The position numbers were made by a program, and so were the translations under genes. Below are positions 1,569 through 41,216 of a stretch of DNA of 64,000 bases, in pieces; the stretch's first letter is position 1, and every line of letters starts with the position of its first letter. The notes under the pieces were generated by a model. It worked only from the letters and a program-made list of their open reading frames with translations, was not told the origin of the DNA and searched no databases. The DNA comes from Ignavibacteriaceae bacterium (lineage in GTDB: Bacteria; Bacteroidota; Ignavibacteria; Ignavibacteriales; Ignavibacteriaceae), in contig JARLHC010000120.1 in the NCBI GenBank assembly GCA_031292455.1, positions 1-64,000 of the forward strand. Reading direction: 5' to 3'.

Positions 1569-1595
1569 TTATCATAAGCAATCAGCTTATGATAA
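1569..1595. terminator. 11-bp perfect hairpin between convergent genes
   Basis: TTATCATAAGC and GCTTATGATAA (1569-1579 and 1585-1595) are perfect inverted arms around a 5-base loop. The hairpin sits between the ends of the SPFH gene and mfd and contains the mfd stop codon (1587-1589). There is no long U-run on either side, so it is a probable bidirectional end-of-transcript structure, not a textbook terminator. Confidence 0.5.
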
Positions 1596-4500
1596 TCCGG
1601 TGAGAGCCGGAACAGGACTTTCTATAGGTTTATTATTAAACAGCTTCATTATATCAATGCTGAATTTAATGAGGAAGTCGGATATTTTGTCCGGGTTTTC
1701 AAAATTATTGGTAATTACTAATTTCATTACATCTTTCTGCTGGCTGAACTTAACTGAAGTTTTGTAGTTATCCAATATAAAGCGCATCAATTCTATAAAT
1801 TTTACTTTATAATATTCTTCTTTCTGTTCCCTGGGCAGGATAATAAAAATATACTTTCTCTGAATTATAATTCTTTCGAACAGAGCTCTTGAGGCATAGT
1901 ATTTCAATGTAGCTGCAGCAATAAGTCTTTTCACAATTATAGGAAGAGGTCCAAACCTGTCGATGATTTCATCCTTAAGCTCATCTATTTCAGTTATATT
2001 ATTTATTGAATACAGGGCCGTATAGAAATTGAGCCTGTCGATTTGTTCGGGCATATATTCCTGAGGAATGCCAATATCAAAGAATGTATCGATTGTCGGT
2101 TCTGTTTTTTCTTCTGTTTTGGGAAGGTCTTTGAAGATTTCTTTGAATTCAAGGTATTTAAGTTCTTCGACAGCTTCGTTAATCATTTTAACATAAAGAT
2201 CAAAACCGACGTCATTAATAAATCCCGACTGCTGAGTACCCAAGAGGTTTCCAGCTCCTCTGATTTCAAGATCCCGCATTGAAAGACTGAATCCTGCGCC
2301 CACATCGGTAAATTCTTCAATTGCCTGGAGCCGTCGTAAAGCTTTTTTTGAAATTCCATTGAGAGAAGGGACAATGAAATATGAATATGCCTGTTTATTT
2401 GAGCGTCCTACACGACCTCTGAGTTGATGAAGCTCAGCAAGGCCGAAGCGGTCAGCCCTATTTACTATTATAGTATTTACATTAGGAATATCGATACCTG
2501 ACTCAATGATTTTTGTAGAGAGGAGCAGATCAAATTTTCGGTTAAGGAATCCATGGATGACCTCTTCAAGCTGGGCAGGTTTCATTTGTCCATGTGCAAT
2601 TGCAACTCTTAAGTCGGGCATATATTTATGGAGGTAACCGGCAAGTTTATCGATTGACTGAACCCGGTCATGAACAAAATAAATCTGACCGGACCTGCGG
2701 AGTTCATTTGTGATCCATTCTTTAATTTTCAACACATCAAAGACTGAAACGGTTGTGTAGATCGGCTGCCGGTTAGGAGGGGGAGTTGCAATTATTGACA
2801 GATCCCTGGCGCCCAGCAGAGAGAGATTTAATGTTCTTGGAATAGGAGTGGCAGTCAGGGTAAGTGTATCCACATTTTCTTTTAACGACCGCAGTTTTTC
2901 TTTTGCCATTACACCGAAACGGTGTTCCTCATCAATAATTAGAATTCCCAGATCTTTGAATTTAACATCTTTTGATAATAGCCGATGAGTGCCGATCAGG
3001 ATATCTACTTTTCCTTCTTCGAGATCTTTTAGTATTTCAGTCTGTTGTTTTCTTGTCTGGAACCTTGATATTACAGCAACTTTAATCGGGAATTGGGACA
3101 GCCTGTCGTTAAACGTATTGTAATGCTGTTCAGCTAAAATTGTGGTAGGGACAAGCAGAGCTGCTTGTTTATTATCCTGGACTGCCTTAAAAGCAGCGCG
3201 TACTGCAACTTCAGTTTTCCCGAATCCTACATCGCCGCAAACAAGACGATCCATGGGGCTTTCAGCTTCCATATCTCCCTTGATTTCTTCAGTAACTTTG
3301 GCCTGATCGGGAGTATCTTCATAAAGGAATGAGGCTTCAAGCTCTTTCTGCCAAACCGTATCGGGGTTAAAAGTATAGCCTTTAGTAGCTTTTCTTTTAG
3401 CATAAAGTTCAATCAGCTCGCGTGCAGCCTCCTTAATTTTCTTTTTGGTTTTACGTTTAATAGAAACCCAGTCGCCGGTACCGAGGGTAGAAAGAGAAGG
3501 GGTAAGATTTTCATTAGATGAATATTTCTTAACAAGAGTAAGGTAGTTTAGATTTACATAAACCACGCCTCCTTCATTATAAAGGATCTTCATCGATTCC
3601 TGATTGGCCTCACCAATTTTTATTGTTTCGAGTCCTGCGTACTTTCCAATGCCGTAATCTTCATGGACAACATAGTCCCCTTTTTTAATTGAAGCAAAGG
3701 CCTTTGATTTTGACTTCTTATACTTACGACTCTTAATAATTTTAGTTCTGTAGGGTTTATTAAAAATCTCATAATCCGTAAGGAGAAGAAATTTTTCAGA
3801 CTTTGAAATAAACCCTTTTTTTATTGCAAGAGTTTCTATCCTGACTTTGTCTGTATCGATAAGACGGGCAAGTTCATCTCTGAACTGGGAAAGAAGATCC
3901 TTAAGGCGCTCTGACTGAAGTTCATTTTCTGACGTAATAATAATTTCGTAATGATCGGCTGAATATCCCTGGAGAATATTGAACAGGATTTCATAGTTAC
4001 TATTTATAGCCGGCGAATCAGAGAGACCTAAATCTATTCTATCGGCAGAAGCGCCAAGTTCATCTTCTATAAGCCATCTTTTGTTTTCAGTATTTATTAA
4101 TGCATCTATATTATTATTAAGAATAGTAATGGCAACTTCCTGAGCTTCTACGGCAAGGGCTTCGGGGAATTCATCTTCTGGGATTATTTTCTCAGTCACT
4201 TCTTCACTGATAACAGCAGGAGATTCCTGCACCTTAAAACAATTGAATTTTGAAGTATCAATTGAATGCAGCTCATAGGAAGAGGCGAAGACAAGGGGGT
4301 CCTTTAAATAGCTGAATATATCGGATGTTTCCCTCCCCTGCTGATTTATAAGAGAGCCAGCAAGAGTGGCCGTTTCTATATTGTCGATTGAACGCTGGCT
4401 TTCAGGATCAAAATACCGGATAGATTCAAGGAAATCACCGTCAAACTCAAGCCGGACAGGATATTTTTCACTATAAGACCAGAAGTCAATTATTGATCCC

Positions 4501-4997
4501 CGCAACGAATAATCTCCAGGTGCTTCGACGAATTTATCCTTCTGATAATTAAGCAGGTTGAGATATTCTATTATTTCATTATAACCGAGCTGGCTTCCGG
4601 CAGAAATTTTTGTAATAGACTGTTCTATCCTTTCTTTTGAAGGGAGTTCACAATTCAGGATACTGTAATCAGCAAGGAGGATGAGTTTTTCTTTTTTAGA
4701 TATATCAGTAAGTTTTTCCTGCAGGTCTTCCGGTTTATATTCTGTTATTGTAATTACATGTGGCGTAAGGTTGAGAATATCAAGTTCAACCTGAAATTCC
4801 TCGATATATTTTATTCCGGGGAAAAGCACAACAATCTGGTTCTCCGTTTCGAATAATTTCATAAGAACCAGGCTTTTAGAGGAACCGGATAAAGGAGAGA
4901 TAAAAACATGGGCGGTCCTCTCCCCCAGCATTTTTCTTAAATGCTTAATTGAATCGAACCTTGAGAACCTGTTTATAACAGAACTGCTAAAATCCAT
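1587..4997 (-). CDS. mfd: Transcription-repair coupling factor Mfd
   Basis: About 1,136 residues, normal for Mfd. Order: UvrB-homology N-terminal region, RNA-polymerase-interaction domain (KKGDYVVHEDYGIGKYAG, near residue 445), then a RecG-like translocase with Walker A GDVGFGKTE (near 587), DEEH box (IIDEEHRFGV, near 686), helicase motif VI (QLRGRVGRS) and the C-terminal TRCF domain. Mfd removes RNA polymerase stalled at lesions and recruits UvrA. I chose ATG at 4997; an in-frame TTG two codons earlier (5003) would add Met-Phe. The gene stands alone, separated by a repeat-rich gap from the PAP2 gene upstream. Confidence 0.97.
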   Translation of the reverse strand: MDFSSSVINRFSRFDSIKHLRKMLGERTAHVFISPLSGSSKSLVLMKLFETENQIVVLFPGIKYIEEFQVELDILNLTPHVITITEYKPEDLQEKLTDISKKEKLILLADYSILNCELPSKERIEQSITKISAGSQLGYNEIIEYLNLLNYQKDKFVEAPGDYSLRGSIIDFWSYSEKYPVRLEFDGDFLESIRYFDPESQRSIDNIETATLAGSLINQQGRETSDIFSYLKDPLVFASSYELHSIDTSKFNCFKVQESPAVISEEVTEKIIPEDEFPEALAVEAQEVAITILNNNIDALINTENKRWLIEDELGASADRIDLGLSDSPAINSNYEILFNILQGYSADHYEIIITSENELQSERLKDLLSQFRDELARLIDTDKVRIETLAIKKGFISKSEKFLLLTDYEIFNKPYRTKIIKSRKYKKSKSKAFASIKKGDYVVHEDYGIGKYAGLETIKIGEANQESMKILYNEGGVVYVNLNYLTLVKKYSSNENLTPSLSTLGTGDWVSIKRKTKKKIKEAARELIELYAKRKATKGYTFNPDTVWQKELEASFLYEDTPDQAKVTEEIKGDMEAESPMDRLVCGDVGFGKTEVAVRAAFKAVQDNKQAALLVPTTILAEQHYNTFNDRLSQFPIKVAVISRFQTRKQQTEILKDLEEGKVDILIGTHRLLSKDVKFKDLGILIIDEEHRFGVMAKEKLRSLKENVDTLTLTATPIPRTLNLSLLGARDLSIIATPPPNRQPIYTTVSVFDVLKIKEWITNELRRSGQIYFVHDRVQSIDKLAGYLHKYMPDLRVAIAHGQMKPAQLEEVIHGFLNRKFDLLLSTKIIESGIDIPNVNTIIVNRADRFGLAELHQLRGRVGRSNKQAYSYFIVPSLNGISKKALRRLQAIEEFTDVGAGFSLSMRDLEIRGAGNLLGTQQSGFINDVGFDLYVKMINEAVEELKYLEFKEIFKDLPKTEEKTEPTIDTFFDIGIPQEYMPEQIDRLNFYTALYSINNITEIDELKDEIIDRFGPLPIIVKRLIAAATLKYYASRALFERIIIQRKYIFIILPREQKEEYYKVKFIELMRFILDNYKTSVKFSQQKDVMKLVITNNFENPDKISDFLIKFSIDIMKLFNNKPIESPVPALTGLS

Positions 4998-5003
4998 GAA
5001 CAA

Positions 5004-5535
5004 AAAAGTTACTTATATTGTATGTGAGATACAATACAAAAAGAATAGTAGCACTAATACTTTTGGTACTATTCATTGGAGAAAAGTACAAGAAGAACTT
5101 TGTCTGCGAATAAAATTCTTATTCTACTTTTCGCTTGATCGAGTAGGCAAAAGATCAAGGCTTAAAATATTTTACTATAAATTCAGCTCCATTCCATTGC
5201 GAAGAAAGAACTCGTTGCACTCAAACAGCTTTCTTCGCTGCCATTCCATTTCGCTGAATTTATTTAACGCAAAATATTTAAGGCCGGAGAATACGATCCA
5301 AATTAAAACCAAATAAGAACAATCTATTACGCTGATTTTTTTAACGTAAAATACTTAAGGCCAGTAAATAAGAACTAAATAAGGACAAACATTTACCGCC
5401 GTTCACTTCATTACGCAAATTTTTTTAACGCATTTTATTTGATGCCCCTTAAATAAGAACCAAATAAGGATATTCCATGCAAAATATTTAAGGCCGGATA
5501 AATACTGACATATACAATGGAGTGGAAAAAGAGAG
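5004..5535. repeat. Repeat-rich intergenic region with a MITE-like inverted repeat
   Basis: No credible gene lies in this 532-bp gap. It holds a small dyad (TTGTAT/ATACAA, 5018-5034), a hairpin CTTGATC/GATCAAG (5134-5159) and a large imperfect inverted repeat (5157-5285) that includes perfect inner arms TAAATTCAG/CTGAATTTA (5178-5186, 5254-5262) and GCGAAGAAAG/CTTTCTTCGC (5199-5208, 5229-5238). The right end is followed by degenerate direct copies of the unit AACGCAAAATATTTAAGGCC plus AAATAAGAACCAAATAAGGA (around 5265-5310, 5335-5385, 5425-5470 and 5478-5500). This looks like a non-coding mobile-type or REP-like repeat, decayed and partly duplicated. Confidence 0.7.
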
Positions 5536-37382: not shown

Positions 37383-37412
37383 TTGACTTCAATTTATTAA
37401 TAGTTATATTTG
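37383..37412 (+). promoter_or_regulatory. Bacteroidetes-type promoter of the ATP-grasp/KamA operon
   Basis: TTG (37383-37385) and TATATTTG (37405-37412) are 19 bp apart, matching the -33 TTTG / -7 TAnnTTTG promoter of Bacteroidetes. This predicts a transcript start near 37419, then an AAAGGA ribosome-binding site at 37428-37433. It supports translation beginning soon after, well upstream of the first ATG at 37773. Confidence 0.65.
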
Positions 37413-37439
37413 TTTTAAACAAAACGTAAAGGAAAAAAA

Positions 37440-38522
37440 ATTTTATCTTCTTTCTTTAGTTCAAGACTGAGTGTTGCATTAACCTTTAATGTCAAACCAG
37501 AAAGCAAAACTTTCCTTGAAAATTTATCCCCTAAACTGAAAAAAAGAATTAATCATCAGAATTTTACCGTAGATACATTTGCTGAATGGGATTCATGGGA
37601 TACTATAACTGCTGTTAAAAATGCTCTGGAGATTTTCCACAACGTTTCTCTCGTTGAAGCTGACCTTTCATCATTTGAAAAATTAAAAAATCTTGATCCT
37701 GATATTGTATTTAATATTGCAGAAGGATTTTACGGAGAAAGCAGGGAAGCACAGATTCCCGCAATACTTGAAATGCTCCAGATCCCATATTCAGGGTCTG
37801 ATCCATTGACGCTTGCGACCTGTCTTGATAAAGCCAGGACAAAAGAAATATTATCATATCATGGAATACCTAACGCTCCATTCTTCATAGCAGCGCATGT
37901 AAGTCAGATTGAGAATAAAAATTTAACTTATCCCCTGTTTGTAAAGCCTATTTGGGAAGGATCAAGTAAAGGAATATTTACATCCTCCTTTGTTAATAAC
38001 AGGAAGGAATTGTCTGAACAGGTTGAAAGAATTAACACAGAATACTCACAACCGGCATTGATTGAAGAGTTTCTATCCGGCAGAGAATTTACAGTTTCAA
38101 TTTTGGGTAATGGAGAAGAAGCTGAAGTTCTGCCAATTGTTGAAATAGATTATAAAGACTTTCCTGAAGGGTTTATACCTATATATTCATATGAAGCTAA
38201 ATGGATTCTTGATACGAAAGAGAATCCCCTCGATGTATTTTCATGTCCGGCGAAATTGAATCCGGTACTTGAAACAAGAATAAGGCAGATTGCTTTACAG
38301 GCATACAACTCTTTAAGATGCAGGGATTGGAGCAGGATAGATATCAGACTGGATGCAAATGATAATCCCAATATCATTGAAATAAATCCACTTCCCGGTA
38401 TATTACCTGATCCCAAAGAAAATTCTTGTTTTCCAAAAGCAGCGAGAACAGCAGGAATTTCATATGATGAAATGCTAAATAAAGTACTTCTAGCTGCAGC
38501 CAGGAGGAATAATCTTTTATGA
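37440..38522 (+). CDS. ATP-grasp ligase, D-Ala-D-Ala-ligase family, with non-standard start
   Basis: The frame is open from 37419 to 38522. From 37440 it gives about 360 residues, the size of the paralogue next to it. ATP-grasp marks: FNIAEGFYGESREAQIP, CLDKARTKEIL, LFVKPIWEGSSKGIF, IEEFLSGREFTVSILG and the Mg-binding NIIEINPLPG. Starting at the first ATG (37773) would remove the N-terminal domain and the first signature. No ATG, GTG or TTG is in frame before that. Candidates are ATT at 37440, 6 bases after AAAGGA, or CTG at 37467, where family members usually begin (xSVALTFN). The family joins two amino acids through an acyl phosphate; the substrates are not known. Its end overlaps the next gene by 4 bp. 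Confidence 0.85.
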   Translation: MLSSFFSSRLSVALTFNVKPESKTFLENLSPKLKKRINHQNFTVDTFAEWDSWDTITAVKNALEIFHNVSLVEADLSSFEKLKNLDPDIVFNIAEGFYGESREAQIPAILEMLQIPYSGSDPLTLATCLDKARTKEILSYHGIPNAPFFIAAHVSQIENKNLTYPLFVKPIWEGSSKGIFTSSFVNNRKELSEQVERINTEYSQPALIEEFLSGREFTVSILGNGEEAEVLPIVEIDYKDFPEGFIPIYSYEAKWILDTKENPLDVFSCPAKLNPVLETRIRQIALQAYNSLRCRDWSRIDIRLDANDNPNIIEINPLPGILPDPKENSCFPKAARTAGISYDEMLNKVLLAAARRNNLL

Positions 38523-39586
38523 AAACGATAGCCAGAATCTTAATCTGTTATAATTCACCGGTAAGTCTATTCAGCATTTATAATGGCAAACCAATAACTG
38601 ATGATTCAATTCCTAATGATTTGTCCGAAAGCGGCTTTTCTAAGGAAATACATAAAATCAAAAGATATTTACTTGAAAATTTCACAGAAGTCAATTCTTT
38701 TGCAATAAACAGTAATGTAGAACGAACTATTAATAAATTAAACGCATATTCTCCAGACGCGATATTCAACTTTGTTGAATCTATTGATGGTGTTTCTTCT
38801 TATGAATATTGCCTAGCAGGCCTCTTTGAGATGCTTGGATTTGATTTCACCGGGAACCTACCTGCGAGTTTGGGTAACTGTCTTAATAAAGCAAAAGCAA
38901 AAACTATTCTTCGCTCTTTTGGAATTAATACTCCGGATTCGATGATTATAAAAATAGGGCAATCAGATAGGTTCAATTCTGACAATTTTGTATTAAAATT
39001 CCCGGTTATTTTAAAATTATTAAATGAAGATGCAAGCATTGGTATATCTGAACTATCAGTTGTGAATGATTATGATTCGTTAAATAAACATATCAGTTTT
39101 TTGAAATCTACATATTGTCAGGATATACTTGCTGAAGAATATATAGATGGAAGAGAGCTGAATATTGCTGTTCTCGGAAATAAAGCTCTGCCTATATCGG
39201 AAATAAAGTTTGATGGACTTCCGAAAGGGCTACCCCAAATTGTTACATATGACGGCAAATGGATTGCCGATAGCATTTATTACGAAAACACTAAACCAAG
39301 TTGTCCGGCTCAATTAAATCCTGAGCTTAGAGTTAAAATTGAGGAGACTGCCATTCTGGCTTTTAATGCAATGGACTGCAGAGACTATGCACGCGTGGAT
39401 ATGCGTCTTAACAGAATGAATATTCCCTATGTAATTGAAGTAAATCCAAATCCGGATATTTCGATGGATTCCGGATTTGCAAGGGCTGCAGCCGCAGCGG
39501 GAATGAGTTATTCTGACTTACTTTTTACAATTACGGGTTTCGCTTTGAAAAGAAAAAATTATGATACGAAAATTAAAGCCGGGTGA
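38519..39586 (+). CDS. Second ATP-grasp ligase, D-Ala-D-Ala-ligase family
   Basis: A 355-residue paralogue of the gene before it, sharing the layout FNFVESIDGVSSYEY, CLNKAKAKTIL, FPVILKLLNEDASIGIS, AEEYIDGRELNIAVLG, DGKWIADS and YVIEVNPNPD. The start overlaps the first ligase stop by 4 bp and the end overlaps the GNAT gene by 26 bp, so the four genes are strongly coupled. True peptidoglycan Ddl enzymes are usually single and lie with mur genes. A tandem pair beside an aminomutase suggests amino acid or dipeptide ligation with unusual substrates. The shared KWI and CPAxLNP blocks in both copies suggest related substrates. Confidence 0.88.
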   Translation: MKTIARILICYNSPVSLFSIYNGKPITDDSIPNDLSESGFSKEIHKIKRYLLENFTEVNSFAINSNVERTINKLNAYSPDAIFNFVESIDGVSSYEYCLAGLFEMLGFDFTGNLPASLGNCLNKAKAKTILRSFGINTPDSMIIKIGQSDRFNSDNFVLKFPVILKLLNEDASIGISELSVVNDYDSLNKHISFLKSTYCQDILAEEYIDGRELNIAVLGNKALPISEIKFDGLPKGLPQIVTYDGKWIADSIYYENTKPSCPAQLNPELRVKIEETAILAFNAMDCRDYARVDMRLNRMNIPYVIEVNPNPDISMDSGFARAAAAAGMSYSDLLFTITGFALKRKNYDTKIKAG

Positions 39587-40055: not shown

Positions 40056-41216
40056 ATGGAACTGTGGCAGCAAATGGTAAGAGACAGTATTCACTCTGTC
40101 GATCAGTTAGTGGAGAAATTCGGAATAGAGCGTCAGACAGCTGAGGACCTCGACGAATTCTTCCAAGCCAGGATAAATCCATATTATTTAAGCCTCATAC
40201 GTAGTCCCGGAGATCCTATCTGGCTCCAATGTGTCCCTACCAAACAAGAATTAGAAGACATAGGTGCTGAGGAAGATCCCTTAATGGAAGATGCGATGAG
40301 CCCTGTTCCCAATATTACTCACCGCTATCCCGATAGAGCACTATTTCTTGTAACAAGTCAATGCGGTTTATATTGTCGATTCTGCACAAGAAAAAGAAAA
40401 GTTGGTGATTATGATAAAATTTCAATGAAGGGATTGGAAAGCGCCTTTAGATATCTCGAACAGCATACTGAGATTAGGGATGTAATTCTTTCCGGCGGCG
40501 ATCCTTTAATGCTTACGGATATTATGCTCGAAAAAATTCTTCAGAGGATAAGAGCAATTCCTCATATTGAAATTATCAGAATAGGTTCGAAAATGCCTTG
40601 TGTATTACCACAAAGAATAACCCCACATCTATGTGATATGATTAAGAAATATCATCCGGTTTATTTGAATACACATTTTAATCATCCATGGGAGATTACT
40701 CCTGAAAGTTCAAAAGCATGCGAGATGCTAGCTGATGCAGGTATACCTGTTGGTAATCAAATGGTTCTAATGAAAAATATTAATGATGATCCGGCAGTTG
40801 TCAAAGAGTTAATGCAAAAACTTCTTAAAATCAGGGTCCGTCCTTATTATATGTACATGGCAGACGAAACTAAGGGAGCTAATCATTTCAGAACTTCCAT
40901 TGAAACAGGAATAGAGATAATTGAAAACCTGAGAGGGCATACAAGCGGGCTTGCAATACCACATTTTGTAATCGATGCCCCTGGTGGAGGTGGGAAAATT
41001 CCTCTGCTCCCCAACTATGTGCTGCATAAGGATGATGAGAAAATTGTACTTAGGAATTATAAGCACAAGATATATTCCTATAGGAACTATCATGATAAGA
41101 ATAATCCGGAAAAAGAAAATACAACACCATCAACAATTAAGATTGTAAAGCAGAAAACGAAGGCGATGAAGGTAACTAAAGTTAAGTTACCCAGAATGGA
41201 AAAAATAAAAAATTAA
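40056..41216 (+). CDS. kamA: Lysine 2,3-aminomutase-type radical SAM protein
   Basis: A 386-residue protein of the KamA family. The [4Fe-4S]-SAM motif C103-x3-C107-x2-C110 sits in SQCGLYCRFCTRKR, and the PLP lysine is K314 in APGGGGK. D270 and D307 align with Asp293 and Asp330 of clostridial KAM, which hold the lysine side-chain amine; spacing D270-D307-K314 equals D293-D330-K337 exactly, and R112 aligns with Arg134. So lysine is the likely substrate and beta-lysine the product. The C-terminal CxCxxC zinc site of clostridial KAM is absent, replaced by a Lys-rich tail (about 348-386). Start has a GAGGAAAAG site; 9 bp after the GNAT gene. Confidence 0.9.
   Translation: MELWQQMVRDSIHSVDQLVEKFGIERQTAEDLDEFFQARINPYYLSLIRSPGDPIWLQCVPTKQELEDIGAEEDPLMEDAMSPVPNITHRYPDRALFLVTSQCGLYCRFCTRKRKVGDYDKISMKGLESAFRYLEQHTEIRDVILSGGDPLMLTDIMLEKILQRIRAIPHIEIIRIGSKMPCVLPQRITPHLCDMIKKYHPVYLNTHFNHPWEITPESSKACEMLADAGIPVGNQMVLMKNINDDPAVVKELMQKLLKIRVRPYYMYMADETKGANHFRTSIETGIEIIENLRGHTSGLAIPHFVIDAPGGGGKIPLLPNYVLHKDDEKIVLRNYKHKIYSYRNYHDKNNPEKENTTPSTIKIVKQKTKAMKVTKVKLPRMEKIKN

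Follow-up and report, generated by a model that had tools for sequence, protein, structure and literature searches.

We found that the first gene of a four-gene ATP-grasp operon in an Ignavibacteriaceae genome lacks a usual start codon near its 5' end, and that an ATT at position 37440 is its best-supported start on sequence grounds. The gene lies in a 64-kb stretch of DNA (64,000 nucleotides, here called the window). The conservation counts across the order Ignavibacteriales place this start beyond chance, and the lack of a usual start codon is not a sequencing accident. The start-codon class is conserved and genes of the operon overlap; low yield, translational coupling and sensitivity to initiation factor IF3 are what we propose in addition. 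Taken together, we consider it likely that a selected, weak AUU start throttles the coupled operon, with a yield that falls when free IF3 is high. The features concerned are as follows.

37383-37412, + strand: candidate promoter by consensus match, TTGACT - 16 nt - TATATT(TG)
37428-37433, + strand: Shine-Dalgarno (SD) site AAAGGA, GG-to-ATT distance 9, with the ATT six bases after the site
37440-37442, + strand: predicted ATT start codon; ATT, ATC or ATA in 49/52 order members
37440-38522, + strand: first ATP-grasp gene (gene 1), D-Ala-D-Ala ligase-like, 360 codons plus stop; PF07478, 133 bits
37443-37466, + strand: predicted N-terminal extension, 8 codons ahead of the ancestral start residue; no in-frame stop in 49/49
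37467-37469, + strand: CTG, at the residue where the ATG start of outgroups aligns
38519-38522, + strand: ATGA in which the stop of gene 1 and the start of gene 2 overlap; 4-nt overlap in 47/53
38519-39586, + strand: second ATP-grasp gene (gene 2), D-Ala-D-Ala ligase-like; PF07478, 102 bits
39561-40046, + strand: GNAT acetyltransferase gene overlapping gene 2 (ORF and domain match)
40056-41216, + strand: KamA family radical SAM aminomutase gene; over the TIGR00238 cut-off

A base-by-base check showed an in-frame TAA at 37416-37418, an open frame over 37419-38519 and a TGA stop at 38520-38522. It confirmed every coordinate behind the claim of the first-pass annotation that no in-frame ATG, GTG or TTG (NTG below) occurs between 37419 and 37773. 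The first NTG is the ATG at 37773, 111 codons past the ATT, and the ORF listing indeed starts the gene there, giving 249 aa and losing 111 of the 360 residues, so the predicted truncation by more than 100 residues is borne out. Among the 45 long ORFs of the window, the first NTG lies more than 60 codons in for only one other, the plus-strand ORF 4795-5313, which partly overlaps a 1141-codon ORF on the minus strand (1590-5012). The promoter and the AAAGGA site that had been said to point to the ATT are both present. The promoter-like boxes are TTGACT (37383-37388) and TATATTTG (37405-37412), the latter of which may match the Bacteroidota TAnnTTTG box. In most order members, inspected by eye, the start is preceded at a short distance by a TATATTTG-like box.

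We searched 59 genomes (the window's own and those of the same genus, family and order) with the protein and obtained 53 strong orthologs (E below 1e-120), a count that includes the window's own. The 5' end was readable in 52 of them (L043 was dropped at a contig end), and start positions were placed by eye, not blind, from the protein anchor LNVALTFN. The codon at the SD-spaced position was ATT in 42, ATC in 5, ATA in 2 and ATG in 3. Relatives with ATG at 37440, which the first-pass annotation had named as evidence against its proposal, were not encountered: at the SD-spaced place the same-genus relative has ATC, and the ATT/ATC/ATA class prevails among the order members. Protein identity to the window gene was 54-83% among 26 aligned order members. 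ATT was also found in the named strain Stygiobacter electus (Melioribacteraceae), where the gene order is the same by eye, and the ATT/ATC/ATA start occurs in single-contig genomes too. Two further order members carry ATT (L200) and GTG without an SD site (L201). A second scan of 80 named loci, which places the group as Ignavibacteriales, gave ATT, ATC or ATA in 74 and ATG in 4, two of these being Kryptonia, which are outgroups; one locus was unread at a contig end (L122), the fixed offset put another in the wrong place (L125), and 31 of the loci repeat sequences of the first set (L001-L053).

The three orthologs with ATG differ in their SD sites. Two members of one genus (L039 and L047) keep AAGGA within a perfect hairpin with a GG-to-ATG distance of 19 nt, as does the named locus L118, and the third (L050) has no SD-like site. 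Pairing a stronger start with a weaker site is consistent with selection for modest yield, although such cases are few.

We also examined the sequence around the predicted start. An SD-like site was found in all 49 non-AUG genes. It had at least 5 bases in 38/49 of them versus 9/42 other window ORFs (Fisher p=8e-8; the search spans differ slightly). Among the 51 genes in which an SD-like site was found, the GG-to-start distance was 9 in 27, and the span 7-14 nt past GG held ATT, ATC or ATA in the coding frame in 49, versus 23 and 7 in the other two frames; no ATG, GTG or TTG was found in that span in any frame. The counts of ATT, ATC and ATA are 42:5:2 at the start codon, compared with 885:246:494 in the bodies of these genes, an enrichment of ATT over the other isoleucine codons (odds ratio 5.0, Fisher p=6.7e-6). 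The stretch between start and ancestral start residue carries in-frame stops in 0/49 genes, compared with 13/49 and 42/49 in the other frames, a count that is not independent because the start was chosen within an open frame. Third-base changes in the extension were in modest excess (82/197, p=0.009, from pairs that are not independent), and an upstream control had no excess (77/245). No NTG occurs between the stop and the ancestral start residue, inclusive, in 14/49 genes, the window's among them. Tested as an IF3-discriminated non-canonical start, the gene had no ATG, GTG or TTG at SD spacing, an appropriate SD distance and a conserved start class. In the window, the leader folds no better than shuffled sequences (z 0.71), giving no sign of RNA structure at the start. 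A frame shift from an upstream ATG was rejected, being opposed by in-frame stops within 12 nt upstream of the start in 15/49 genes and by the promoter just upstream.

The first-pass annotation had also stated that family members usually begin at the CTG at 37467. This holds for the outgroups, which have ATG exactly at the aligned residue; in most genes that position lies eight or nine codons downstream of the predicted start. Within the order the residue is a leucine codon in 44/49 genes (CTG in both the window and the same-genus relative). It is very unlikely that this codon is the real start (CTG 37467 here, TTG in relatives), with the upstream stretch a mere leader: the SD site is too distant, the stretch stays open in all 49 genes with an ATT, ATC or ATA kept after the SD site, and the codon is neither ATG, GTG nor TTG in 22/49 (TTA, CTG, CTT, CTA, TTT or TTC; 18 if CTG is also allowed), so the ancestral residue provides no common start. 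A different matter is whether many relatives use two starts, an AUU for a long form and a UUG for a short form, the second having been lost as CTG in the window lineage. The residue is TTG in 25/49, making up 57% of its 44 leucine codons versus 12% in gene bodies (p=7.5e-12); UUG may thus serve in those relatives alongside the AUU or in its place. The class families f15 and f8 have TTG or GTG at the aligned place. Against this, an SD-like site lies 3-16 nt upstream of the residue in only 3/49 genes, the same 22 genes have no such codon there, and the TTG may be left over from the old ATG rather than act as a second, SD-less start in those relatives. We regard the use of two starts as unlikely. 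Finally, the window comes from a draft genome in 171 contigs, which would leave room for a sequencing or assembly error or for a decayed gene. This explanation is refuted by the relatives, since the same feature recurs in 49 of 52 orthologs of other species-level genomes, some of them single-contig, and the conserved columns of the protein are kept; we give it practically no weight.

Outside the order, a search of the class found orthologs in 135/197 genomes. We fetched 58 class loci and read 56 (L194 and L259 had no motif), and all class and outgroup starts were assigned by eye. Family f13 has four ATT starts and two ambiguous reads. Six members of f14 (L185, L186, L243-L246) have CTG at SD spacing, and in three of these none of ATG, GTG and TTG precedes the domain. 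Nine members of f20 and f24 are ambiguous, with ACG or ATT and, three codons on, a TTG; in L172, L173, L184 and L247-L251, ACG stands at the SD distance where L183 has ATT, with TTG three codons later. TTG was found in three members of f15 and in three of f8, which also has one GTG and one ATG, and f5 has mostly TTG, with ATG possible in 2/10. Families f18, f19, f7, f10 and f12 have ATG in 17/17. Outside the class, four of five loci were read (L267 was dropped) and all have ATG at the residue aligned with CTG 37467, as does the outgroup Kryptonia. The presence of ATG in these five families and outside the class makes it the probable ancestral codon, and weak starts are likely to have arisen on more than one occasion. 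A wider reading, doubtful at present, is standing selection for weak starts across much of the class, with the codons reached independently (ATT, ATC or ATA in Ignavibacteriales and f13, CUG in f14, ACG or UUG in f20 and f24, and UUG in f5, f8 and f15). If true, the operon and infC would form a small IF3-gated regulon that makes a biosynthetic pathway responsive to the condition of the translation machinery.

Returning to the weak AUU start of the window gene, its effect could pass down the operon. Gene 2 begins with ATG in 51/53 orthologs; in the count of its overlap with gene 1, one row (L026, offset -31) looks like a script artefact. The ordinary initiator tRNA would read the AUU with a third-base mismatch, and a well-spaced SD site on a short leader, about 20 nt as estimated from the consensus promoter match, would help initiation. 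The weak start would limit translation of gene 1, and the 4-nt overlap would pass this limit to gene 2 and probably to the rest of the ATP-grasp/ATP-grasp/GNAT/KamA operon. Since IF3 rejects AUU, AUC and AUA starts, high free IF3 would lower the operon yield. We recovered 39 distinct tRNA genes, of which only one has an initiator stem, with anticodon CAU; a special initiator tRNA reading AUU was thus rejected, with the proviso that the genome is 96.7% complete and a gene may have been missed.

The comparison with infC drawn in the first-pass annotation proved apt, as infC of the same genome itself appears to start with ATC (AAAGAGGTACTTT-ATC). We read 28 of 30 infC loci in the order (L054, L135-L163; L142 and L149 were dropped), and by eye 25 of them have an apparent ATC start after an SD site such as GAGAGGT. 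An IF3 loop therefore probably exists here. The infC genes of three genomes (L150, L153 and L154, in G025, G010 and G035) have no ATC start; the same three genomes have no strong ATP-grasp ortholog.

For the operon, we infer IF3 control by analogy with infC, sigR and the staphylococcal cvfC1 and ccpN. The AUU could instead set only a constant low yield, with IF3 never varying enough to matter, to which we give somewhat less than an even chance. A title cited in PMC9410913 presents the AUU start of E. coli pcnB as limiting its translation, and staphylococcal cvfC1 yields about 10% of AUG from its AUU, with no media effect (PMC13009471). Pointing the other way, IF3 represses Streptomyces sigR by way of the GTC start of that gene (PMC5472188), and infC itself begins with ATC in this order.

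AUU-type starts as a kind are already known, and the ATP-grasp gene is probably a further case. With AUU or AUA as the start, the yield in S. aureus in poor medium was about 10% of that with AUG (PMC13009471). Among 61,358 ancestral AUG starts, Belinky et al. recorded 1 switch to AUU (PMC5622118), and SD use for Ignavibacteria is given as 32, in a table column that we read as percent (PMC10783764). Staphylococcal cvfC1 (AUU) and ccpN (AUA) resemble the present case in having an ATT/ATC/ATA-type start, a strong SD site and conservation among relatives, and cvfC1 is likewise the first gene of an operon. They differ in that their starts were demonstrated by ribosome profiling and reporters whereas ours is predicted from sequence, that they encode a small protein and a regulator rather than a ligase, and that their conservation is within staphylococci, extending to B. 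subtilis for ccpN (PMC13009471). E. coli infC and pcnB share the AUU start, but IF3 autocontrol is established for infC, whereas no translation factor is among the ATP-grasp operon products (PMC9410913, PMC5472188). Streptomyces sigR likewise lies outside the translation genes, and annotation had overlooked its non-AUG start; in contrast, its start is GTC, it encodes a stress sigma factor, and the IF3 effect was measured (PMC5472188).

We found no earlier description of the start of the ATP-grasp gene in the open-licence literature. Proved AUU-type starts are few, and in the present case a metabolic gene keeps the AUU class across an order. The comparison offers a route to finding such starts, a natural series of ATT, ATC, ATA and ATG for testing IF3 selection, and a warning that automatic callers cut 111 residues off the window protein.

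To describe the protein, we compared gene 1 with D-alanine--D-alanine ligase (Ddl). It is over the Pfam cut-off for Dala_Dala_lig_C (PF07478, 133 bits versus 24), and the best PDB matches of its product are Ddl enzymes. However, it falls below the curated NCBIfam Ddl cut-offs (198.8 versus 243 at best, among the best 25 of 42 matches), and it belongs to a tandem pair beside GNAT and KamA genes. The KamA gene is below the TIGR03820 cut-off for the lysine 2,3-aminomutase AblA (475.5 versus 525.4). Nothing on the function of the operon was found in the open-licence literature, and none of the viral contigs encodes a relative of the ATP-grasp gene. In the AlphaFold model of the gene 1 product (pLDDT 82.5), the first strand comprises residues 11-16 with no secondary structure before it, so the 8-codon extension is predicted to precede the protein core; with a start at 37773, residues 1-111 of the model would be lost. 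A third related ATP-grasp gene was found elsewhere in the same genome (G000:C95:13285-14121).
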